Shown: in pieces, positions 425 through 60,853 of the stretch
How positions within the stretch are numbered: position 1 is the stretch's first letter
Layout: every line of letters starts with the position of its first letter
Source: Roseivivax jejudonensis
Lineage (GTDB): Bacteria; Pseudomonadota; Alphaproteobacteria; Rhodobacterales; Rhodobacteraceae
Direction of reading: 5' to 3'
DNA: 64,000 nucleotides
Assembly: GCF_900172265.1 (NCBI RefSeq)
Contig: NZ_FWFK01000004.1
Span: 248,001 to 312,000 of the forward strand
Notes under the pieces: model-generated
The model's input: the letters and a program-made list of their open reading frames with translations, nothing else
The model's database searches: none
Told to the model about the DNA's origin: nothing
Made by a program: the position numbers and the translations under genes

Positions 425-3400
425 ATGGCCGATTTCCAGAAGATCCTCATCGCCAATCGCGGCGAGATCGCCATCCGCGTGATGCGGGCGGCCAACGAGA
501 TGGGCAAGAAGACCGTCGCGGTCTTTGCCGAGGAGGACAAGCTGGGGCTGCACCGGTTCAAGGCCGACGAGGCCTACCGGATCGGCGAGGGGCTGGGCCC
601 GGTGCAGGCCTACCTGTCGATCCCCGAGATCATCCGGGTGGCGAAGCTGTCGGGCGCCGACGCGGTGCACCCGGGCTACGGCCTGCTGTCGGAGAACCCC
701 GAGCTCGTCGATGCCTGCGATGCCGCGGGGATCACCTTCATCGGGCCGAAGGCCGAGACGATGCGCGCGCTCGGCGACAAGGCCAGCGCGCGGCGGGTCG
801 CGATCGAGGCGGGGGTCCCGGTCATCCCGGCGACCGAGGTGCTCGGCGACGACATGAAGAAGATCCGGGCCGAGGCCGACGAGATCGGCTATCCGATCAT
901 GCTCAAGGCGTCGTGGGGCGGCGGCGGCCGGGGGATGCGGCCGATCCTGTCGGCCGACGAGCTCGAGGACAAGGTGAAGGAAGGCCGGCGCGAGGCCGAG
1001 GCGGCGTTCGGCAACGGCGAGGGCTACCTCGAGAAGATGATCGAGCGCGCCCGCCACGTCGAGGTGCAGATCCTCGGCGACCGGCAGGGCAACATCTATC
1101 ACCTCTACGAGCGCGACTGCTCGGTCCAGCGGCGCAACCAGAAGGTCGTGGAGCGCGCGCCCGCGCCCTACCTGTCGGACGCCCAGCGCGAGGAGCTGTG
1201 CGAGCTGGGGCGCAAGATCTGCGCCCACGTGAACTACGAATGCGCCGGCACCGTCGAGTTCCTGATGGACATGGACACCGGCAATTTCTACTTCATCGAG
1301 GTCAATCCGCGGGTGCAGGTCGAGCACACGGTGACCGAGGAAGTCACCGGCATCGACATCGTGCAGGCGCAGATCCTGATCGCTGAGGGCAAGAGCCTCG
1401 TCGAGGCGACCGGCAAGGCGTCGCAATACGACGTGGCGCTGAACGGGCACGCGCTGCAGACGCGGATCACGACCGAGGATCCGACCAACAACTTCATCCC
1501 CGATTACGGCCGCATCAGCGCCTATCGCTCGGCGACAGGCATGGGCATCCGGCTCGACGGCGGCACCGCCTATGCCGGCGGCGTCATCACGCGGTTCTAC
1601 GATTCCCTGTTGGTGAAGGTGACGGCGTGGGCGCCGACGCCCGAGAAGGCGATCGCGCGGATGGACCGGGCGCTGCGCGAGTTCCGCATCCGCGGGGTCA
1701 GCACGAACATCGACTTCGTGAACAACCTGCTGCGGCACCCGACCTTCCTGTCGAACCAGTACACGACCAAGTTCATCGACACGACGCCGGAGCTGTTCGA
1801 CTTCAAGCAGCGCCGCGACCGGGGCACCAAGGTGCTGACCTACATCGCCGACATCACGGTGAACGGGCATCCCGAGACCGAGGGCCGCACCCTGCCCCGC
1901 GCCGACCTGAAGGTGCCGAAGGCGCCGGAGACCGAGGGCACGGCGCCCGACGGCACCCGGCAGCTTCTGGAGCGCGAGGGGCCGCAGGCGGTGGCCGACT
2001 GGCTCGCCGCGCAGAAGCAGGTGCTGATCACCGACACCACGATGCGCGACGGGCACCAGTCGCTTCTGGCGACGCGGATGCGCTCGATCGACATGATCCG
2101 GGTCGCGCCGGCCTATGCCGAGACCCTGCCCGGCCTGTTCTCGGTCGAGTGCTGGGGCGGCGCGACGTTCGACGTCGCCTACCGCTTCCTGCAGGAATGC
2201 CCGTGGCAGCGGCTTCGCGACATCCGCGCGAAGATGCCCAACATCATGACGCAGATGCTGCTGCGCGCGTCGAACGGGGTGGGCTACACCAACTATCCCG
2301 ACAACGTGGTCGAAGGCTTCGTCAAGCAGGCGGCCGAGTCCGGCGTCGACGTGTTTCGCGTGTTCGACAGCCTGAACTGGACCGAGAATATGCGCGTCGC
2401 GATGGACGCGGTGATCGACAGCGGCAAGATCTGCGAGGGGTCGATCTGCTATACCGGCGACATCAACGACCCCGACCGGGCGAAGTACGACCTCAAGTAC
2501 TACGTCGCGATGGGCAAGGAGCTGAAGAAGGCCGGCGCGCACATCCTCGGGCTCAAGGACATGGCGGGGCTCCTGAAGCCCGCCGCCGCCGGGCCGCTGA
2601 TCAAGGCGCTGAAGGACGAGGTGGGCCTGCCCGTCCATTTCCACACGCACGACACCTCGGGCGCGGCGATCGCGTCGATCATGGCCGCGGCGGAGGCCGG
2701 TGTCGACGCGGTGGACGCGGCGATGGACGCGCTGTCGGGCAACACCTCGCAGCCGACGCTGGGGTCGATCGTCGAGGCGCTGCGCTTCACCGACCGCGAT
2801 ACCGGGCTCGACATCGCGCGGGTGCGCGCGATCTCCAACTACTGGGAACAGGTGCGCGCACAATACGCCGCGTTCGAGAGCGCGATGCAGGCACCGGCGT
2901 CGGAGGTGTATCTGCACGAGATGCCCGGCGGGCAGTTCACCAACCTGCGCGCGCAGGCAAGGTCGCTGGGGCTCGAGGAGAAGTGGCCCGAGGTCGCCAA
3001 GACCTATGCCGAGGTGAACCAGATGTTCGGCGACATCGTGAAGGTGACGCCGTCGTCCAAGGTGGTGGGCGACATGGCGCTGATGATGGTCAGCCAGGGC
3101 CTGACCCGCGAGGAGGTCGAGGATCCGAAGAAGGACATCTCGTTCCCCGACTCGGTCATCGACATGATGAAGGGCAACCTCGGACAGCCGCCGGGTGGCT
3201 GGCCCAAGGGCATCCAGAAAAAGGTCCTGAAGGGTGAAAAGCCGATGACGGACCGGCCGGGCAAGCATCTCGATCCCGTGGACTTCGACGCCAAGCGCGA
3301 GGAATTGCAGGAGAAGTTCCCGGACCGCGAGTTCGACGCGGAGGACCTGAACGCTTACCTGATGTATCCCAAGGTCTTTACCGACTACGTCGCCCGCCAC

Positions 3401-3865
3401 GAGACCTACGGCCCGGTGCGGACGCTGCCGACGCGGACGTTCTTCTACGGCATGCAGCCGGGCGAGGAGGTCACCGCCGAGATCGATCCGGGCAAGACGC
3501 TGGAGATCCGGCTGGTGACCGTGGGCGAGACCCACGAGGGTGAGGTGCGCGTCTTCTTCGAGCTGAACGGCCAGCCGCGGACGGTGCGCGTGCCCGACCG
3601 CAAGGCGACAGGCGGCGCCGCGGCGCGGCCGAAGGCCGAGCTCGGCAACCCGCTGCATGTCGGGGCGCCGATGCCCGGCGTGGTCAGCCAGATCGCGGCC
3701 GAGGCGGGCAAGAGCGTGAAGGAGGGCGACCTTCTGCTGGTGATCGAGGCGATGAAGATGGAGACCGGGCTCTATGCCGAGCGCGACGCGACCGTGAAGG
3801 CGGTGCACGTGCAGGCCGGCGGCCAGATCGACGCCAAGGACCTGCTGGTGGAATACGAGGAGTGA
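425..3865 (+). CDS. pyc: Pyruvate carboxylase
   Basis: The 1146-residue product carries all domains of a single-chain pyruvate carboxylase, which makes oxaloacetate from pyruvate, bicarbonate and ATP (anaplerosis). An N-terminal biotin carboxylase (KILIANRGEIAIRV at the start, glycine-rich ATP loop GGGGRGM) spans roughly residues 1-450. A carboxyltransferase TIM barrel begins near residue 540 (DTTMRDGHQS), and a C-terminal biotinyl domain has the biotin-acceptor sequence EAMKMETG with Lys1111. The length matches the family. The open frame extends upstream, but homology starts at the ATG chosen here (MADFQKI) and a GAGGA-like element lies about 10 nt before it. Confidence 0.97.
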   Translation: MADFQKILIANRGEIAIRVMRAANEMGKKTVAVFAEEDKLGLHRFKADEAYRIGEGLGPVQAYLSIPEIIRVAKLSGADAVHPGYGLLSENPELVDACDAAGITFIGPKAETMRALGDKASARRVAIEAGVPVIPATEVLGDDMKKIRAEADEIGYPIMLKASWGGGGRGMRPILSADELEDKVKEGRREAEAAFGNGEGYLEKMIERARHVEVQILGDRQGNIYHLYERDCSVQRRNQKVVERAPAPYLSDAQREELCELGRKICAHVNYECAGTVEFLMDMDTGNFYFIEVNPRVQVEHTVTEEVTGIDIVQAQILIAEGKSLVEATGKASQYDVALNGHALQTRITTEDPTNNFIPDYGRISAYRSATGMGIRLDGGTAYAGGVITRFYDSLLVKVTAWAPTPEKAIARMDRALREFRIRGVSTNIDFVNNLLRHPTFLSNQYTTKFIDTTPELFDFKQRRDRGTKVLTYIADITVNGHPETEGRTLPRADLKVPKAPETEGTAPDGTRQLLEREGPQAVADWLAAQKQVLITDTTMRDGHQSLLATRMRSIDMIRVAPAYAETLPGLFSVECWGGATFDVAYRFLQECPWQRLRDIRAKMPNIMTQMLLRASNGVGYTNYPDNVVEGFVKQAAESGVDVFRVFDSLNWTENMRVAMDAVIDSGKICEGSICYTGDINDPDRAKYDLKYYVAMGKELKKAGAHILGLKDMAGLLKPAAAGPLIKALKDEVGLPVHFHTHDTSGAAIASIMAAAEAGVDAVDAAMDALSGNTSQPTLGSIVEALRFTDRDTGLDIARVRAISNYWEQVRAQYAAFESAMQAPASEVYLHEMPGGQFTNLRAQARSLGLEEKWPEVAKTYAEVNQMFGDIVKVTPSSKVVGDMALMMVSQGLTREEVEDPKKDISFPDSVIDMMKGNLGQPPGGWPKGIQKKVLKGEKPMTDRPGKHLDPVDFDAKREELQEKFPDREFDAEDLNAYLMYPKVFTDYVARHETYGPVRTLPTRTFFYGMQPGEEVTAEIDPGKTLEIRLVTVGETHEGEVRVFFELNGQPRTVRVPDRKATGGAAARPKAELGNPLHVGAPMPGVVSQIAAEAGKSVKEGDLLLVIEAMKMETGLYAERDATVKAVHVQAGGQIDAKDLLVEYEE

Positions 3866-3950
3866 CGTCGCGTCCGGGGCGCCCTGCGTTGACCGCGGGG
3901 CACCCCACCCGCATGATCGCCGCCGGTACGAGTTCCGGGTGGAGTGCGAC

Positions 3951-4331
3951 ATGTGTGAGCCGGGCGAAAAGCTCAAGTTGTGTACCTGCACGGGCCCCGG
4001 GCCGCTGAAGCGGCCCTACTGGACCTTGAAGCGCCGGGATCCCGAACGGGCCGACCCTGACCTCATGGCCGTCGGCAGTTGCGAGATGGTTCGGCACAGC
4101 TTCGAGGAGAAGCTCCTGCGCTCCAAGATCCTGGAGGATATCAACCGCTTCGACGCGTTCGACACCGAGATGACGCTTGCGGACGGCGACATCCTCGAAC
4201 TGGCGCTCGACCGGATGGACCTGACGTTTCGGTTCACGGGCGGGCGCTGGCAGGACGCGGACGACCTCGGCGACCGCCGGAGCGCGGGTGACCTCGTCGG
4301 AGTGGGACGCTTCTCGTGCTCCATTCGCTGA
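3951..4331 (+). CDS. Hypothetical protein with N-terminal cysteines
   Basis: A 126-residue product that I do not recognise. It begins MCEPGEKLKLCTC with cysteines at positions 2, 11 and 13 and a fourth in 'VGSCEMV', which could bind a metal. The middle is acidic and looks like a soluble alpha/beta fold (DTEMTLADGDILELALDRMDLTF). The ATG at 3951 is preferred over an in-frame GTG at 3939 because a GGTGGAG ribosome-binding sequence sits six bases upstream of the ATG. It lies 85 bp downstream of pyc on the same strand. No signal peptide or membrane segment is seen. Confidence 0.6.
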   Translation: MCEPGEKLKLCTCTGPGPLKRPYWTLKRRDPERADPDLMAVGSCEMVRHSFEEKLLRSKILEDINRFDAFDTEMTLADGDILELALDRMDLTFRFTGGRWQDADDLGDRRSAGDLVGVGRFSCSIR

Positions 4332-4545
4332 CGCGCCCGCGGCGGGTGCCGTTTCGGTGATCGTCACGTAGAGCCGTGCGGCCGCGTGCACCTTGGTCGG
4401 CCGTCGGAGGGCTCAACGGGGCGCTGGCCCCTGCCCTGCGGGTATCGCGTCATGCACACCGGCGCGCACGGGCTGTGCGACGCTGTGCTTGTCAGTCGGC
4501 CCGCGCGGTGCATCCTTTCAACGAGAGCCACCCGGGAGGGCGATC

Positions 4546-4926
4546 ATGCTGAGCGTCACGCCGATCTATGCCGCGCTGCTGACGGCGCTGTTCATCGCGC
4601 TGAGCGTCCGGGTCATCCGGGCGCGGCAGGGGGCCGGGGTCTCGCTCGGGCATGGCGGGGATCCGGGGCTCGAGGCGCGAATCCGGGCGCAGGGCAATTG
4701 CGCGGAATACGCGCCGCTCGGGATCCTGTTGCTGCTTCTGGCCGAGTTGCAGGGCGCGCCGGCGATCGCGCTGCATCCGCTGGGCCTCTTGCTGCTGGCG
4801 GGGCGGGTGGCGCATGGCCTCGCGCTGACGCGCGGCGCGCTCGGGCTGCGCGTCGCGGGCATGGCGCTGACCTTCACGATGCTGGCGATCACCGCCGCGG
4901 GCCTGTTGCTGCACGCGTTGATCTGA
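4546..4926 (+). CDS. MAPEG family membrane protein
   Basis: The 126-residue product is a four-helix integral membrane protein of the MAPEG superfamily (microsomal glutathione S-transferase-like). Helices lie at about residues 3-22, 55-70, 75-90 and 100-125. The family signature region after the first helix (RVIRARQGAGVSLGHG, then RAQGNCAEYAPLGILLL) is present, including the Arg/Asn/Glu cluster expected at the glutathione site. A GGGAGGG Shine-Dalgarno sequence precedes the ATG. The bacterial members are mostly uncharacterised, so an enzymatic role is inferred from the family only. Confidence 0.85.
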   Translation: MLSVTPIYAALLTALFIALSVRVIRARQGAGVSLGHGGDPGLEARIRAQGNCAEYAPLGILLLLLAELQGAPAIALHPLGLLLLAGRVAHGLALTRGALGLRVAGMALTFTMLAITAAGLLLHALI

Positions 4927-5022
4927 CCGGTCGGCACCGCGCGACACGGCGTGACGCGGCGCGGAAATTTCTGCTTGCAGCGCTGGGCGCGAGACTTTAA
5001 ATCCCGCGCACACCCAAGGAAT

Positions 5023-5097
5023 GCGGGCGTAGCTCAGGGGTAGAGCATTACCTTGCCAAGGTAAGGGTCGTGAGTTCGAATCTCATCGCCCGCTCCA
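5023..5097 (+). tRNA. tRNA-Gly(GCC), copy 1
   Basis: A 75-nt gene including an encoded CCA. The acceptor stem GCGGGCG pairs with CGCCCGC (5087-5093), with discriminator T and CCA at 5095-5097. The D-arm is AGCTCAGGGGTAGAGC, the anticodon loop TTGCCAA gives anticodon GCC, and the T-loop TTCGAAT is canonical. Confidence 0.97.
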
Positions 5098-5132
5098 TTG
5101 GGTCGACATCGCCGGGACAGACCGGCCGGAGC

Positions 5133-5207
5133 GCGGGCGTAGCTCAGGGGTAGAGCATTACCTTGCCAAGGTAAGGGTCGTGAGTTCGAATCTCATCGCC
5201 CGCTCCA
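5133..5207 (+). tRNA. tRNA-Gly(GCC), copy 2
   Basis: A 75-nt copy of the preceding tRNA, identical over its full length, starting 110 bp later with a 35-nt spacer. The anticodon is GCC and CCA is encoded. The two are probably one transcript. Confidence 0.97.
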
Positions 5208-5223
5208 ATCATCAGGCAGACAG

Positions 5224-5700
5224 TCACGATGTCAGCGGCTTGCGCATGCGGGCCCGTTGCAGCGCGACGCCGCGGCGCCGCACCTCTTCGCGCAAGACGG
5301 TGGTGAAGCCGCAGGCGGCGAACGGCGCTTCGGCCGCGAGGCTCGCATCGGTGACGAGTTCGGTCTCTCCGGCCGCGCGCGCCGCCGCCTCGATTGCGCG
5401 GAGAAGGTCGCGGAAGACGCCCCGGCCCCGCGCCTCGGGCAGGATGAACGCGAGATCGACGTAGCCGCCGGGACCGAGCGTCATGAAACCCGTGATGCCG
5501 CCCGATTCTTCGGCCACCCGCACTTCCTGCGCGGCGAGGCGCAGTTCCCAGTCCGGGGCGGCGGGCACGGACGGCGCCCAGGCGCGGCGCTGGCGCCGCG
5601 TGTAGGGGCTGGGCTCGGCATGGATGGCGGCGTGGAAGATCACCGCCAGCGCGCGCAGATCGGCGGCGCGGGCCGGGCGGATCCGGCGCGCACCCGCCAC
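5224..5700 (-). CDS. GNAT family N-acetyltransferase
   Basis: A 158-residue acetyltransferase of the GCN5 fold. The N-terminus (RRIRPARAADLRALAVIF) and the acetyl-CoA loop LPEARGRGVFRDLLRAIEAA (about residues 88-107, the Q/RxxGxG/A signature) are typical. The C-terminal 'AEAPFAACGF' matches the usual terminal Y/F-x-x-x-GF element. Translation starts at GTG. The gene lies 4 bp after the Lrp-type gene on the same strand, so the two are probably co-translated. Its 3' end is 17 bp from the second tRNA-Gly. The substrate is unknown. Confidence 0.85.
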   Translation of the reverse strand: MAGARRIRPARAADLRALAVIFHAAIHAEPSPYTRRQRRAWAPSVPAAPDWELRLAAQEVRVAEESGGITGFMTLGPGGYVDLAFILPEARGRGVFRDLLRAIEAAARAAGETELVTDASLAAEAPFAACGFTTVLREEVRRRGVALQRARMRKPLTS

Positions 5701-5704
5701 CGGA

Positions 5705-5944
5705 TCAGAATGCCTTGAACGTCAGCGTCGTGAGCGAGCGTTCGATGCCCGGGATGTCGAGAAGCTGTTCGTTGATGTACTTGCCGACATCCTCGTCCTC
5801 GGGGATGTAGAGCTTCATCAGGAGATCCCACTCGCCCGAGGTCGAGAAGAGCTCCGAATGCAGTTCGCGCAGCGCGATCGCCTCGGCCACCTTGTAGGTG
5901 CGGCCGGGCGTGCAGCGGATCTGGACGAAGGCGCAGGTGGACAT
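5705..5944 (-). CDS. Stand-alone Lrp/AsnC ligand-binding (RAM) domain protein
   Basis: A 79-residue protein consisting only of the effector-binding RAM/alpha-beta-sandwich domain of Lrp/AsnC regulators. It opens with [19 protein letters not shown] and contains [21 protein letters not shown]. The helix-turn-helix half of a full Lrp protein is absent, as in known stand-alone RAM proteins, so it is not a DNA-binding regulator by itself. It may oligomerise or bind amino acids. It is upstream of, and nearly abuts, the GNAT gene. Confidence 0.85.
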
Positions 5945-6080
5945 TTTCGGGCCTCGCAGCGGACAGGAACGCGCGGGAACGCTTGCACGGGCGACACGCG
6001 GATCACAAGGGCCGCGCGCGCCCCTTGGCCTCGGCCCCCGGCCCGCCTATACCGGCGCGCGACGACACGAAGGAGAGCCC

Positions 6081-6668
6081 ATGCGGCGCGCGCGCATCAC
6101 CCGCAAGACCGCCGAGACCGACATCACCGTCGCGCTGACGCTCGACGGGTCGGGCAGCTACGACAATCGCACCGGCGTCGGCTTCTTCGATCACATGCTC
6201 GACCAGCTGGCGCGGCATGCGCTGTTCGATCTCGAGGTGCGCTGCGACGGCGACCGGCACATCGACGATCACCACAGCGTCGAGGACGTGGGCATCGCGC
6301 TCGGCCAGGCGCTGACCGAGGCGCTGGGCGACAAGCGCGGGATCCGGCGCTACGGCGCCTGCCACCTGCCGATGGACGACGCGCTGGTGCGCGCGGCGCT
6401 GGACCTGTCGGGACGGCCCTACCTCGAATGGCACGTGGCGTTCCCGACCGAACGGATCGGCAGCTTCGACACGGAGCTGGTGCGCGAGTTCTTCCAGGCG
6501 TTCGCGACCCACGGCGGGATCACTCTCCACGTGGACGGGCTGCGCGGGCTCAACAGCCACCACATCGCCGAGGCGGCGTTCAAGGCGGTGGCGCGCAGCC
6601 TGCGCGACGCGGTCGAGACCGATCCGCGCAAGGGCGACGCCGTGCCCTCGACCAAGGGCACGCTCTGA
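6081..6668 (+). CDS. hisB: Imidazoleglycerol-phosphate dehydratase
   Basis: A 195-residue monofunctional HisB (no phosphatase domain) catalysing dehydration of imidazole glycerol phosphate in histidine synthesis. Both metal-binding histidine motifs are present: [10 protein letters not shown] near residues 60-69 and [10 protein letters not shown] near 157-166. Also present are the N-terminal RKTAETDI and [10 protein letters not shown] sequences. An AAGGAGAG ribosome-binding site precedes the ATG. hisH follows after 81 bp on the same strand. Confidence 0.97.
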
Positions 6669-8064: not shown

Positions 8065-8451
8065 TCAGCGCACGCGGCTCCAGGTCTGGCTGGAGCACAG
8101 CAGGCCGCCGGCGACGCAGCCCGAGAGCTTCAGCGAGTTGCCGGCGAGATCCATCTTGCCGAGATAGATCTTGTCGTTCGACGGCCGCCACACGCGGCCC
8201 TCGTATTTGCCGCCACCCTGCGGGACCATGTTGATGACCAGCGTCTTGCCCTTGTTGGGCGAATCGTATTCGCCCGAGGAATCGAAGGTGCGCTGGATGA
8301 CGCCGCACAGCTTGTCGCCGCAGGGCACCATGGCGACGTGGGCGTAGGAGCCGTCGTCGACCTGGGTCTGCCAGATCCCTTCGACCGGATCGGCGGCGGC
8401 GGCGCCGGCCATCAGCGTCAGTCCGGCGATCCATGCGCTCAGTCGTGTCAT
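8065..8451 (-). CDS. DUF2147 domain-containing exported protein
   Basis: A 128-residue protein with an N-terminal Sec signal peptide (about residues 1-20, cleaved after AGAAAA). The mature domain is DUF2147: DPVEGIWQT near the start, the cysteine pair in [12 protein letters not shown], the conserved [12 protein letters not shown] element, and a third and fourth cysteine in [18 protein letters not shown]2147 proteins are small periplasmic lipocalin-like beta-barrels of unknown function. It is convergent with the YjhX gene and divergent from hisA. Confidence 0.85.
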
Positions 8452-55678: not shown

Positions 55679-56848
55679 ATGGCAGGCAATAGCGGCGGCC
55701 CGTGGGGCGGCGGCGGCTCCGGCAACAACGGACCGCAGCGCCCGCAGGGCGGCGGAGGGGGCGGCGGACGCCGGCCCGACGACAACCAGATCCCCGAGAT
55801 CGACGAGCTGGTCCGCAAGGGCCAGGAACGTCTGCGGGTCCTGATGGGCGGCCGGGGCGGCAACGGCGGATCGGGCGGCGGCGGCGACGGCCCGTCGGGC
55901 CGCACGATCGGCATCATCGTTGCCGTGGTCGTGTTGGGCATCTGGGCCTGGAACAGCTTCTACACCGTGCGCCCCGAAGAGCAGTCTGTGGAGCTGTTCC
56001 TCGGCGAGTACGCGTCGACGGGACAGCCCGGCCTCAACTTCGCGCCCTGGCCGCTCTACTCCTACGAGGTGGTCAATGTCACCTCGGAGCGGACCGAGAA
56101 CATCGGCATGGGCCGCGGCGCCAACGAGGACGGCCTGATGCTGACCACCGACGCCAACATCGTGGACATCGAGTTCCAGGTGGTCTGGAACATCCAGGAT
56201 CCGGCACGGCTGCTGTTCAACATCCGAGATCCGCAGCTGACGGTGCAGGCGGTGTCGGAAAGCGTGATGCGCGAGATCATCGCGGCCTCGAACCTGGCGC
56301 CGATCCTCAACCGTGACCGTGGCATCATCGCCGATACGGCGCTGGAGAACATCCAGGGCACGCTCAACGAGTACGAGTCGGGCATCAACGTGGTGCGTGT
56401 GAACCTCGACGCGGCGGACCCGCCGGCCGAGGTGATCGACGCGTTCCGCGAGGTGCAGGCCGCCGAGCAGGAGCGCGACAGGCTGCAACGCCAGGCCGAC
56501 GCCTACGCCAACCGCGTTCTGGCCGAAGCCCGCGGCGAGGCCGCGCAGACGCTCGAACAGGCCGAGGCCTACCGCGCGCAGGTGGTGAACGAGGCCATCG
56601 GTGAGGCATCGCGCTTCATCTCGGTGGCGCAGGAGTTCAACCAGGCGCCCGAGGTCACGCAGCGCCGTCTCTACCTCGAGACGATCGAGCGGACGCTCGG
56701 CGACATCGACAAGATCGTGCTCGACGAGGCCGGGGCCGGCGGCGACGGACAGGGCGTGCTGCCCTACCTGCCGCTCAACGAGCTGAACCGGAACCGTCCG
56801 GCGGCGTCGTCCGGCAACTCCAACCAGACCAGCGGAGGGTCGAACTGA
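55679..56848 (+). CDS. hflK: FtsH protease activity modulator HflK
   Basis: A 389-residue HflK. A Gly/Asn-rich cytoplasmic N-terminus (residues 1-75) precedes one transmembrane helix (about 80-98), then the SPFH/band-7 domain (QSVELFLGEY, GLNFAPWPL, SVMREIIAAS) and a long coiled coil (VQAAEQERDRLQRQADAYAN). It forms, with HflC, the large periplasmic cage around FtsH. A GGGAAGAG site precedes the ATG; the stop overlaps the hflC start. Confidence 0.96.
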   Translation: MAGNSGGPWGGGGSGNNGPQRPQGGGGGGGRRPDDNQIPEIDELVRKGQERLRVLMGGRGGNGGSGGGGDGPSGRTIGIIVAVVVLGIWAWNSFYTVRPEEQSVELFLGEYASTGQPGLNFAPWPLYSYEVVNVTSERTENIGMGRGANEDGLMLTTDANIVDIEFQVVWNIQDPARLLFNIRDPQLTVQAVSESVMREIIAASNLAPILNRDRGIIADTALENIQGTLNEYESGINVVRVNLDAADPPAEVIDAFREVQAAEQERDRLQRQADAYANRVLAEARGEAAQTLEQAEAYRAQVVNEAIGEASRFISVAQEFNQAPEVTQRRLYLETIERTLGDIDKIVLDEAGAGGDGQGVLPYLPLNELNRNRPAASSGNSNQTSGGSN

Positions 56849-57954
56849 TGCGCTGGACCGCTCTCCCAATCATCGTGATCGTCGGCGTGTTGATCGCCGT
56901 CTGGTCGGCCATCTTCATCGTGGACGAACGCGAAAAGGCCCTCGTGCTGCAGTTCGGCCAAATCAAGCAGGTGCGCGAGGAGCCCGGGCTCGGGTTCAAG
57001 ATCCCGGTCATCCAGGAAGTCGTCTACTACGACGACCGGATCCTGTCGCTCGACACCGACACGATCGAGGTGACGCCCGCGGACGACCGCCGGCTCGTGG
57101 TCGACGCCTTCGCGCGCTACCGCATCGCCGATGTCGTGCAGTTCCGGCAGGCGGTCGGCATCGGCGGCGTGCGCGCCGCCGAGGACCGGCTGAGCTCGAT
57201 CCTCAACGCCGACATCCGCGAAGTGCTCGGTGCCGACCAGGTCACGTCCGACCGGATCCTGTCGCAGGATCGTCGGGACCTGGCGCGGCGGATCCTGTCG
57301 GAGGCGCGGTCGGAGGCCGAGAGCCTCGGGCTGCAGATCGTCGACGTGCGGCTGAAGCAGACCAACCTGCCGCAGCAAAACCTCGAGGCGACGTTCGCCC
57401 GGATGCGCGCCGAGCGTGAACGCGAGGCGGCCGACGAGATCGCCCGCGGTAACGAGGCGGCGCAGCGCGTGCGCGCCGCGGCCGACCGCACGGTGGTCGA
57501 GACGACCTCGAACGCGGGCCGCGAAGCCGAGATCATCCGAGGCGAGGCGGACGCCGAGCGCAACCGCGTCTATGCCGAGGCGTTCGGCGACAACCCGGAG
57601 TTCTTCTCGTTCTACCGGTCGCTCACCGCGCTGGAGCGGTCGCTGCAGCGAGACAACTCCACGCTCGTTATCTCGCCCGATAGCGAATTCGTCGGACCGC
57701 TCTTCGCGGCGATCCGGGCCGAGGGGCTCGAGGGCGTCGAGATCTCGGACACCGACGTTGAGCGGCTGCGCGAACTGGCGCCGCAATCCGAGATCTCGCC
57801 CGACCTGCCCGACAGCGCGCGCGAGGAGATCGAACGCTCCGCCGAGGAGGCCGAGCGCCAGATCGAGGAGCGGGCCAACCAGAACCGGCCCCAGGGCAGC
57901 GGCGAAGATGACGCCGAGAGCACGCCCGAAGAGGACGCACCGGTCGGGAACTGA
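56848..57954 (+). CDS. hflC: Protease modulator HflC
   Basis: A 368-residue HflC partner of HflK with one N-terminal transmembrane helix (about residues 5-25), the SPFH core (EKALVLQFGQIKQVREEPGL, DNPEF-ending helix) and a C-terminal acidic, low-complexity extension of ~60 residues (EEIERSAEEAERQIEERANQ) that is longer than in E. coli HflC. Starts on the last base of the hflK stop (TGATG), so it is coupled. Confidence 0.96.
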   Translation: MRWTALPIIVIVGVLIAVWSAIFIVDEREKALVLQFGQIKQVREEPGLGFKIPVIQEVVYYDDRILSLDTDTIEVTPADDRRLVVDAFARYRIADVVQFRQAVGIGGVRAAEDRLSSILNADIREVLGADQVTSDRILSQDRRDLARRILSEARSEAESLGLQIVDVRLKQTNLPQQNLEATFARMRAEREREAADEIARGNEAAQRVRAAADRTVVETTSNAGREAEIIRGEADAERNRVYAEAFGDNPEFFSFYRSLTALERSLQRDNSTLVISPDSEFVGPLFAAIRAEGLEGVEISDTDVERLRELAPQSEISPDLPDSAREEIERSAEEAERQIEERANQNRPQGSGEDDAESTPEEDAPVGN

Positions 57955-58152: not shown

Positions 58153-60609
58153 TCACCCGAGATCGAGGCGCGCGGCCGGCCCCGGACCGAAGCGCGCCGA
58201 CACCTGCGCGACCGCGAGCCGCACCGGCCCGCCTGCGAGGTCCGTGCCCAGCGCGCCGGCCTCGTAGCGCCAGCGCGGCGCATCGGTGGATGCCTCGCGC
58301 AGCACCTCCGCCCCGCGCAGGATCCGCACGAGATAGGTCTCGCGCTCTTCGCCGAGCGGTACGTCCGGGCCGGTCCAGTCGTCGCCATCGATGCGCGTGC
58401 GGCGGATCCAAGTTACATCGAGCCCACCGCCCGAGGGGACCGCGCGCAGGTGCGCGGGCGCATACGGCCGGAGGCCGACGCCATCGAACGCGGCGACGGT
58501 CAGCGTGTAGGACGGATCGTCGAGCGGCCGCCGCGCCGGTCCGATGCGGTAGTGCCGCGCCTGCCGCCGCGCCGCCGCCGCCAACGCGATCTGCGCCGGC
58601 GCGCCGTCCATGCGGACGACGACGCTGCCCGCGGGCCAGACCGGCGGCATCACCCCGTCGGTGCCGAACTGCCCGCGCAGGCGCATCGACAGACGCCAGC
58701 GGTCCGGCGCGATCATCTCGACCTCGCGCGCCTGCAGAAGCTCCCATCCGTCCGGTGAGCCGTCACCGACGGCAAAGAGGTTGCCGCCGGCCAGAAGCGC
58801 CGGCCCGTCGATCCGCGACAGCGCCCCCGAGAAGAGCCGGATACCGAGCGGAGCACCGCGATCGAGCCGCCCGACCGGACCGGCGGCCAGCGGCGTTTCC
58901 GTAGCCCCGACGGTGGCGCGGGCCGCGATCACCGTGTTGAGCGCGTAGCCGGAATCGTCCGCGGCATCGTAGACGGCGACCGACCCGGGCCAGGGGCTCG
59001 CCGTCAGTGCGAGATGCGGCGCGTGCGGCGCCTCGTCTCCGATCATCAGCGGCAGGTCGAGGAACCGGGCCTGAACCGGGATCGCCGGCACGAACGGGCG
59101 CAGCGTGGCCGGATCGTCCGGAAACGCCGCCGCAAGGTAGGTGCCCGGCTCGATGCGCACGGCCTCGAGCAGCTGGCGATCGGTGATCTCGGCCCGGTCG
59201 ATCCGGTAGCGCGCGCCGTCGAGCGAGACCACGTCGCCGGCCCCCAGCGCGATCCGGGAGGGCGGAAGGGCGAAACGCAGCGTATCGCGGGCGAGCCGCG
59301 CCTCCACCAGCCAGCGCTCCGTCACCTGCCGCGCCTCCGCGCGGGTGAGCGACAGCGCGACATCGGTCTCCGAGATCGCGTGGGTGGCGTCGTCCGGCAG
59401 AACGCTTTCCTCGGCGACGGTCTCGTGGTCGCCGTCGGCCTCGAAGAAGCGCAGGCGCACACGACCGGCCATCTCGGCCTCGGCGGCGCGCGTTTCGGTC
59501 AGGCGGGCCTCGAGGTCGTCCGACAGCGCCAGCGCGTCGGGGTCGAGCTCGGTGGCATGCGCGCCGTCGCGCATGCGGAACACGAGCCGCCCGCCCCGTT
59601 CGATGGCGTCGAATCCGTGGGCCAGCATCAGCGGCTGCAACGCGCGGCGGGCGTCACCGACATCCGGAACGAGGTAGCCGCGCACGAAACCGTGGAGCGC
59701 GGAGGTGTCGATCTCGTGCAGACCGGCGCGGGCGCAGATCTCCGTCACGACCGACGCCAGCGTGCGCGCGCTGGCACGGCCCGTGATCCAGTGGCCCCGG
59801 CGCCAGTTCGCGCCGTCGGCCCACACGTCTGACAGGCCCGGAAACCACGGGTATGGCCGCGCGTCCCACGCCCAGACGAAGGCGCGCGACAGGTCGACCA
59901 TGGGTCCGTCATAGACCGGCGACACCGGGTTGTTGTCCGGGTCGTCCCAGTAGAGGTGCAGCGCGCGCAGGTACTGCCGCTGAATCAGTTCGTCGCGCTG
60001 CCCGGTCGAGTGTCGCGGCAGGTGGCTTTCGGAGGATCTGGGATCGAGAAAGACGTTCGGCTGGTTCGTGCCCTTGTCGACGGCGGGGCAGCCGAGCTCG
60101 TCGGCCCATGCGCCGTCGAATTGCGGCCCGCGCAATCCCTCCGGCTCGTGTGCGGAAAACGCCATCGCTTCGGCGCCGTTCGGCCATTCGAGGCACTTGC
60201 GCGAGGCCTTCCACGTCGGACGCCGATCGGGTGGCGAACAGGCCATGATGCCGCTGTCGCCGAAGATCATCACCTCGCGCACCTGGTCCTGGGTCTCGCC
60301 GAGAAGCGCGAGCCGGCGGCATCGCCCGGGGTCGAGGGGTTTCGGCCCCTCGACCGCCGCGCGCACCCATTCGGCGCCGGCGCGGGTCTTGCCCGCGCCG
60401 CGCCCCCCGAGGATGACCCACGTGCGCCAGTCGCCCTCGGGCGGCAGCTGGTGCGGCATCGCCCAGACCTCGAAGAGGAAGGGCAAGGCCAGTTCCACGC
60501 CGTCACCCAGGGCGCGCAGCCATTCAGTCCGACGCGCAGCACTTGCGGAGGCGATGGATTCGGCAGCGGACCTCGTTCCGGGCCGCGTCGAGGTCGAGTC
60601 CGTAGCCAT
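58153..60609 (-). pseudogene. In-frame fusion of GTA large terminase N-terminus to GTA gp15 C-terminus
   Basis: An open frame of 818 codons. Residues ~27-171 match the ATPase part of the gene-transfer-agent/HK97-type large terminase: WAMPHQLPPEGDWRTWVILG, Walker A GGRGAGKT (68-75), LALLGETQDQVREVM, and the Walker-B region GLRGPQFDGAWADEL. From ~172 on it matches the tail/host-specificity protein gp15 of RcGTA-type clusters, from the end of its glycosidase-like barrel (GCPAVDKGTNQPNVFLDP), through MVDLSRAFVWAWDARPYPWF and RGHWITGRASARTLASVVTE to its normal C-terminus. The terminase nuclease, all capsid and tail genes and the N-terminal half of gp15 are missing. The junction is at about 60093-60108. 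No stop or frameshift occurs. The start codon overlaps g1 by 86 bp and is uncertain. Confidence 0.85.
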
Positions 60610-60853
60610 ATGCGATGCCCGCTTTTTCCTTGCGAAAGGCCGCGATCTCGCCCTCGGTCTCGCGCGCGGCTTTCAGCCAGTAGCGCACATCGCCGAGAAG
60701 ACGCGCCGTTTCCGTCCGCTCGCCGAGATCGCCGGCTTCGGCGCGTGACCTCAGCTCGGTCAGTTCCGTCCGGATCGATCGGAGCGTCTCGGCGATCGCG
60801 TCGCGATCCTCTTCGAGCTCGGAGACCCGGTCTTCGAATGTGATCAGTGCCAT
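60524..60853 (-). CDS. Gene transfer agent g1 (small-terminase-like) protein
   Basis: A 109-residue protein at the position of RcGTA orfg1, immediately before the terminase. A long N-terminal coiled coil (about residues 6-45, FEDRVSELEEDRDAIAETLR) is followed by RLLGDVRYWLKAARETEGEI and a basic Cys-containing C-terminus (CRIHRLRKCC). GTA gp1 acts as the small terminase partner in DNA packaging. With the terminase truncated it has no functional partner here. The ATG at 60853 follows GGTGAGGC. Confidence 0.82.
   Translation of the reverse strand: MALITFEDRVSELEEDRDAIAETLRSIRTELTELRSRAEAGDLGERTETARLLGDVRYWLKAARETEGEIAAFRKEKAGIAYGYGLDLDAARNEVRCRIHRLRKCCASD

Follow-up and report, generated by a model that had tools for sequence, protein, structure and literature searches.

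A 64,000-nucleotide stretch of the Roseivivax jejudonensis genome (G000), here called the window, holds a reading frame that begins as the large terminase (TerL) of an RcGTA-type GTA and ends as the megatron protein gp15, and the question this locus raises is whether the frame is a scar of GTA loss or a gene that has been kept. We confirmed that the ORF runs from residues 1–171 of TerL, without a change of frame, into the C-terminal half of gp15 (Table 1). Fusion residues 66–172 matched the Pfam family Terminase_6N (E = 6.3e-14), and residues 161–818 matched RcGTA gp15 (6tba_8A 643–1303; E = 7.4e-224). Positions 643–1298 of the NCBIfam GTA_megatron model (NF048004) aligned with fusion residues 166–816, scoring 782.3 bits where the cut-off is 800. 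The TerL part ends after E171 (codon 60099–60097) and the gp15 part starts at residue 172. The original prediction of an uninterrupted 818-codon frame that opens as a terminase, with Walker A at residues 68–75, and switches to the gp15 C-terminal half at about residue 171 held in each respect, and the alignment of both halves that it proposed as a check overturned the identity of neither.

Table 1. Features of the collapsed GTA locus in the window.
Feature	Position	Strand	Description	Basis
TerL-N::gp15-C fusion ORF	58153..60609	minus	818 aa, in frame, stop-free	ORF and family matches
TerL-derived part, residues 1–171	60097..60609	minus	ATPase N-half up to Walker B-like W-x-D-E	Terminase_6N; alignment with intact congener TerL
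Walker A GGRGAGKT, residues 68–75	60385..60408	minus		
Deletion join, GAG 171 / CTC 172	60094..60100	minus	few bases of shared sequence make exact site ambiguous	
gp15 (megatron)-derived part	58153..60096	minus		6tba 643–1303 match
g1, GTA small terminase-like ORF	60524..60853	minus		position and similarity to same ORF of intact clusters

The fusion lacks the full TerL ATPase and the nuclease, residues 1–171 alone being left, and it lacks the megatron iris/penetration domain, with NF048004 and 6tba both matching only from their residue 643. By the domain limits given in the available text of PMC7296036 (RcGTA numbering), the end of the peripheral domain, the central domain and the fibre-binding domain are kept, and the iris/penetration domain, the adhesin-like domain and most of the peripheral domain are absent. 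Compared with RcGTA gp15 (PDB 6tba/6teh), the fusion thus shares the central and fibre-binding domains, is without the penetration domain and is joined to a terminase half. Walker A and the Walker B-like D-E, the sequence marks of a terminase ATPase, are retained in 12/12 full-length fusions described below. An AlphaFold model of the fusion built from nine sequences had a mean pLDDT of 37 and was left unused.

We next consider what was lost and from where. TIGR02217, which we take to be g12, served as the sole marker of the lost interior in a genome-wide test. It was absent from G000 and from R. marinus DSM 27511 (G005), and present in the congeners R. halodurans (G001) and R. sediminis (G006). 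Overall, TIGR02217 was found in 0/15 fusion genomes and in 7/7 comparison genomes, one of which (G011) has its match elsewhere than at its own collapsed GTA locus. Seven of the eight Roseivivax congeners carry the TerL and gp15 halves ~11–12 kb apart, including one (G004) with a disrupted gp15 frame (784 aa). The predicted loss of everything between g2 and g15 is borne out by the disappearance of g12 from the genome and by the spacing in congeners; the search for g3–g14 elsewhere in the genome that accompanied this prediction was run for the g12 marker, which is absent. This comparison with congeners shows that the locus is a collapsed remnant of an RcGTA-type cluster at its original site. Of the RcGTA-type head-tail cluster of Rhodobacterales, the locus retains homologues of g1, of the TerL N-half and of the gp15 C-half, at the place where relatives have the cluster, whereas the interior, the rest of the TerL ATPase with the nuclease, and the full gp15 are missing. 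A full TerL, the g12 marker and the megatron iris/penetration domain, by which a functional cluster of this type would be recognized, are all absent here. DUF6456, presumably of GafA type, was found in 22/22 genomes and does not separate fusion genomes from others. Multiple GTA-like or prophage copies of g12 or the megatron per genome were seen in G039, and in G109, G138 and G277.

The g1 gene that had been predicted beside the fusion is indeed there, identified by its position and its similarity to the corresponding ORF of intact clusters, and it shares 86 nt with the start of the fusion; Pfam, PHROG and NCBIfam gave it no name at a useful E-value. A g1 profile confined to ORFs just upstream detected it in 13/15 fusion loci, the exceptions being G152 and G147, and the same profile recovers g1 in 39/51 non-fusion loci. 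The fetched flanks of the 15 fusion loci contain ORFs that we take, by recognition rather than by family search, to be FabF- and MltG-like (12/15 each) and CysE-like (13/15). The fusion sits where relatives carry the GTA cluster: a transporter neighbour is common to the Roseivivax genomes G000 and G005 and the intact G001 and G006. The genes hflKC, beside which the original prediction proposed to look for the intact cluster in sister genomes, are not the general neighbour of fusion loci. Within the window, two ORFs at 55679–57954 that we take to be hflK and hflC are convergent to the fusion; at the equivalent position R. marinus and other genera have cysE, and the downstream flank differs. A fibre gene that we take to be DUF2793-like lies within the fusion locus in five genera and is also found in nine non-fusion loci. 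It starts at the fusion stop in four genera (G252, G148, G087 and G225); by locus, it lies directly past the fusion stop in L040, L043, L044 and L046 and was also found in L042. On the four fusion branches tested, its omega was 0.03–0.11.

Among 295 genomes of the family, each from a different genus, a search recovered at least 11 further full-length continuous fusions (G100, G078, G051, G145, G252, G249, G152, G148, G087, G112 and G225). With G000 included, 12/12 full ORFs join at the same codon, FD[AG]AWxDE/xGC, with the slash marking the join. A DNA pattern for the join matched 14 of 394 family genomes (about one per genus), adding G147 and G063. The reversed control of this pattern gave 0 matches in the 394 genomes, indicating that the matches are not due to chance. 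R. marinus (G005) lies outside the 394-genome sample and was counted in addition, for a total of 15 copies of the join in 14 genera; genus-level searches for G100 and G078 covered one genome each. Complete single frames account for 12/15 copies, with G005 and G063 being frameshifted and G147 running off its contig. The frame of G005 is lost through an 11-bp deletion close to codon 125, and its gp15 part is still open. The two frameshifted copies indicate that the chimera is dispensable at times. The kept gp15 part is 51–76% identical to the intact gp15 rows compared, and lower in a further comparison. We rejected the idea that every in-frame TerL–gp15 fusion has this join: in-frame ORFs with other joins occur in G218 (L156, 1083 aa), G053 (L157, 977 aa) and G026 (L158, 615 aa), and TerL–gp15 collapses that are out of frame, again with other joins, occur in G084, G131, G248 and G119.

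On a gp15-C tree of 85 rows, the fusion label needs 13 changes, with starred branches forcing at least six and shuffles averaging 14.0. The label needs nine changes on an rpoB tree of 29 genomes (one genome of 30, without an rpoB hit, was left out), at least five of them forced by starred branches, and 11 changes on a tree of the FabF+MltG+CysE flank (48 rows), at least six of them forced. A single clade of all fusions was rejected both on rpoB (p-AU 1.3e-4; 29 genomes) and on gp15-C (p-AU 3.6e-8; quick tree of 30 of the 85 rows). Trees of rpoB, of gp15 and of the flanking genes all fail to group the fusions together, so several separate origins are probable. Within Roseivivax, rpoB places G005 with the intact G001 (99/98) and favours two separate losses; a joint clade of both Roseivivax fusions was not rejected (p-AU 0.055 on rpoB, 0.075 on gp15-C), and one event is indistinguishable from two. 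G087 and G225 form one clade in gp15-C (100), in the flanks (100/100) and weakly in TerL-N (80), and stand apart on rpoB. G100 and G145 are sisters on gp15 (97) and rpoB (100/99), and the flank tree pairs G145 with the intact G247 (88/86). Each of these two pairs may share one fusion event. We also considered a fusion ancestral in Roseivivax, with clusters regained by transfer; this was unsupported, as distances for the inner and outer parts of the cluster group the species alike. Over 56 rows, inner and outer parts agree only moderately (correlation 0.74; 15/53 splits shared), with two strongly supported conflicts, both involving G105 with G090 or G094, so that some clusters may have been regained by transfer.

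Why should the same codon be used repeatedly? The original prediction was that microhomology guided the break. The parent sites share W-x-x-E and at most 8 nt at the join. In 27 loci, of which 23 have a long gp15 frame, the longest exact match along the join diagonal was 5–9 nt; this match ranks 50 to 2,930 among 3,310–6,151 diagonals, and the best run elsewhere was 10–16 nt. TerL and gp15 share longer repeats than that of the join in every cluster examined. Across 57 clusters, a median of ~2% of in-frame pairs outscore the microhomology of the join, and in 9/57 the join outranks every other pair up to 10 codons away on each side. Microhomology at the breakpoint is thus better than average but insufficient, and as sole cause it is ruled out by the longer repeats elsewhere and by the higher-scoring in-frame pairs. 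The nine clusters in which the join is the local optimum suggest that short homology may help to choose the site locally. The TerL codon itself is also a site of other breaks, with 2/13 other partial loci (G038 and G201) breaking TerL at or beside it. In L163 (G038:C197, reverse strand), a TerL-internal deletion joins FDAAWV to AEVNQGGD of the nuclease part at the fusion codon, and the frame is soon lost. In L116 (G201:C14, reverse strand, ~8150–8215), TerL stops right after FDAA and gp15 is intact in a 1324-aa frame; the deletion partner is probably the terminal part of the major tail gene. A break-prone TerL codon, combined with selection for the kept frame, is our preferred reading of the shared join.

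Codon models (triplets) gave omega values on fusion branches of 0.016–0.13 for gp15-C and 0.016–0.16 for TerL-N, which are rough values given saturated synonymous sites and several branch lengths at the model bound. Omega = 1 was rejected in both halves for G087/G225 and for G100/G145 (LR 104–411). Fusions were set against non-fusion sisters in 11 tests (six for gp15-C and five for TerL-N, with sisters G204 and G011 being partly deleted themselves); omega was never significantly higher on the fusion branch, and the one comparison with p < 0.05, for TerL of G148, was lower on the fusion branch. Such single branch tests are noisy, since the branches of an all-intact control (G136/G221, gp15) differ at p 0.003. 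Between G087 and G225, 268 of the 811 residues compared are different and zero stops have arisen, where ~13 stops would be expected without constraint (opportunity ratio 0.047–0.049).

We then compared the two halves at positions that are invariant among GTAs. The 14 fusions kept 861/868 invariant cells in TerL-N and 1781/1858 in gp15-C (Fisher 3e-7, for cells that are not independent). In the four fusions with the lowest gp15 values, chosen post hoc, the corresponding figures were 247/248 for TerL and 514/572 for gp15. Random intact rows keep 99% of invariant cells in both halves; against 200 random intact draws, fusion gp15-C fell below all, and fusion TerL-N did not (21/200). The higher retention of invariant cells in TerL-N than in gp15-C indicates that the TerL half is the guarded part in diverged fusions. 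Overall, the data support the chimera being a real gene under purifying selection in some lineages, strictest in the TerL half; selection after the collapse is supported for the pairs that seem to have a fusion in common. We infer that purifying selection also acts on the chimera in G000 itself, although for this genome, as for any other lineage taken singly, a recent deletion with constraint left over from the intact cluster would fit as well. The original prediction left a choice between a recent event and a retained chimera; retention is the better-supported half.

Our best explanation, to which we assign a probability of about 0.62, is that the chimera formed repeatedly in the family at one codon, with selection keeping copies in some lineages. 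As the comparison with congeners shows, a deletion of ~11–12 kb joined TerL codon 171, at the end of the Walker B-like strand, to the gp15 C-half, leaving g1 and one chimeric gene. The same collapse recurs scattered over the trees of the family, probably through several events, with the codon re-used in 15 copies. The break-prone TerL codon and short homology would probably bias the join, and selection would then retain in-frame copies. The fusion should not package DNA, as it is without the motor C-part and the nuclease, and should not inject DNA, as it is without the penetration domain. At one end, the kept parts could bind nucleotide and g1; at the other, tail and fibre. With a terminase half that binds ATP and is encoded beside its partner g1, and a baseplate half that binds tail and fibre, the protein could interfere with related GTA or siphophage particles as a dominant-negative decoy.

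Phage genes that have been domesticated as decoys of phage assembly are a known class of mechanism, and the fusion would be analogous to these if the decoy idea were true. A dominant-negative decoy against assembly of related GTAs or GTA-like siphophages is a tentative assignment, and one that we regard as rather unlikely. We are just as doubtful that a favoured deletion turns the GTA cluster into a selected poison or decoy gene (g1 + TerL-N::megatron-C), directed at GTA-like siphophages or at the GTAs of neighbours, in parallel in many genera and at one codon, and that, as part of this, the putative decoy unit of some genera includes the DUF2793-like fibre gene behind it. The fusion protein matches 170 phage records, 3/170 covering at least 80% of the query; the best eight of the 170 align with the megatron part and are from Rhodobacter phages. 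The tally includes phages of Roseobacter, Dinoroseobacter and Paracoccus, indicating that related tails attack hosts of Rhodobacteraceae. Among the matches to the query are also 50 records of Microbacterium phages, whose host is actinobacterial. Fifteen plasmid records match the fusion, and the best eight of these 15 align only from query residue 143 or later.

The main rival to a decoy is an inert scar: each fusion would be young, its open frame and low omega would be left over from the intact GTA, and the shared codon would be a mutational hotspot. Such plain decay accounts for the 2/15 frameshifted fusions, for the existence of other GTA deletions with unrelated joins, for G038 and G201, in which this TerL codon or one next to it has been broken and joined to a different partner, and for the length of several fusion branches (e.g. 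G000, G005 and G078), which does not exceed that of branches of intact relatives. It does not readily account for G087 and G225, one clade at the locus, having diverged to the extent described above without the expected stops, nor for the unequal constraint of the two halves, which leftover selection does not predict; in addition, gp15 of G112 evolves fast (end branch 0.82 vs 0.088 for the flanks), yet its frame is open. We consider plain decay unlikely, if the most serious rival. An artefact of misassembly or a collapsed repeat is highly improbable. In the assembled sequence, the join lies well inside its contig (G000:C16, 559,883 bases), it is shared by 15 separate genomes, among them the single-contig G063 and an R. 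marinus record in another collection, and g12 is absent genome-wide.

We consider it unlikely, more so than decay, that the join arose once and was recombined into other species via conserved TerL-N and gp15-C arms, deleting resident clusters, on a fragment that, in contrast to the complete cluster, would fit into a GTA particle, and with arms homogenised later. Such templated spread would explain an identical codon in 15 genomes despite longer repeats being available, as well as the strong conservation on both sides of the join, and with 39 rows TerL-N fusions were clustered beyond chance (6 changes; 0/500 shuffles). This clustering faded with 74 rows (68/500), and neither windowed similarity nor segment trees revealed excess fusion–fusion similarity beside the join. 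Clustering was strongest at a distance from the join, in the middle and distal parts of gp15: some mid-gp15 windows reach 7–20 of 200, and the most distal gp15 segment clusters most (18/500). Moreover, synonymous letters at the join are widely different, and two synonymous codons left of the G005 join follow its relative G001, not G000. Repeated formation at one codon, with selection on some copies, remains our preferred explanation.

Pseudogenised and lost alphaproteobacterial GTAs are discussed as possible cheaters in the available text of PMC10883770, and the fusion lineages are likewise GTA-negative and fit the ideas of loss and cheating set out there. Unlike the cases covered in that text, in which the word "fusion" is absent, they carry an open chimeric gene with a fixed join in 15 genomes. 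No TerL–gp15 fusion was described in the titles or abstract openings of the literature searched.

Accounts of GTA loss usually speak of decay or disappearance. In the present case, the loss favours one outcome, a single chimeric protein with a single join, seen in 15 genomes and constrained in both halves. The fusions represent a repeated natural deletion with a fixed breakpoint. With such a form of loss, the fate of GTA-negative lineages, as cheaters or as cells with a new function, becomes testable, as does the re-use of particle parts against related phages.
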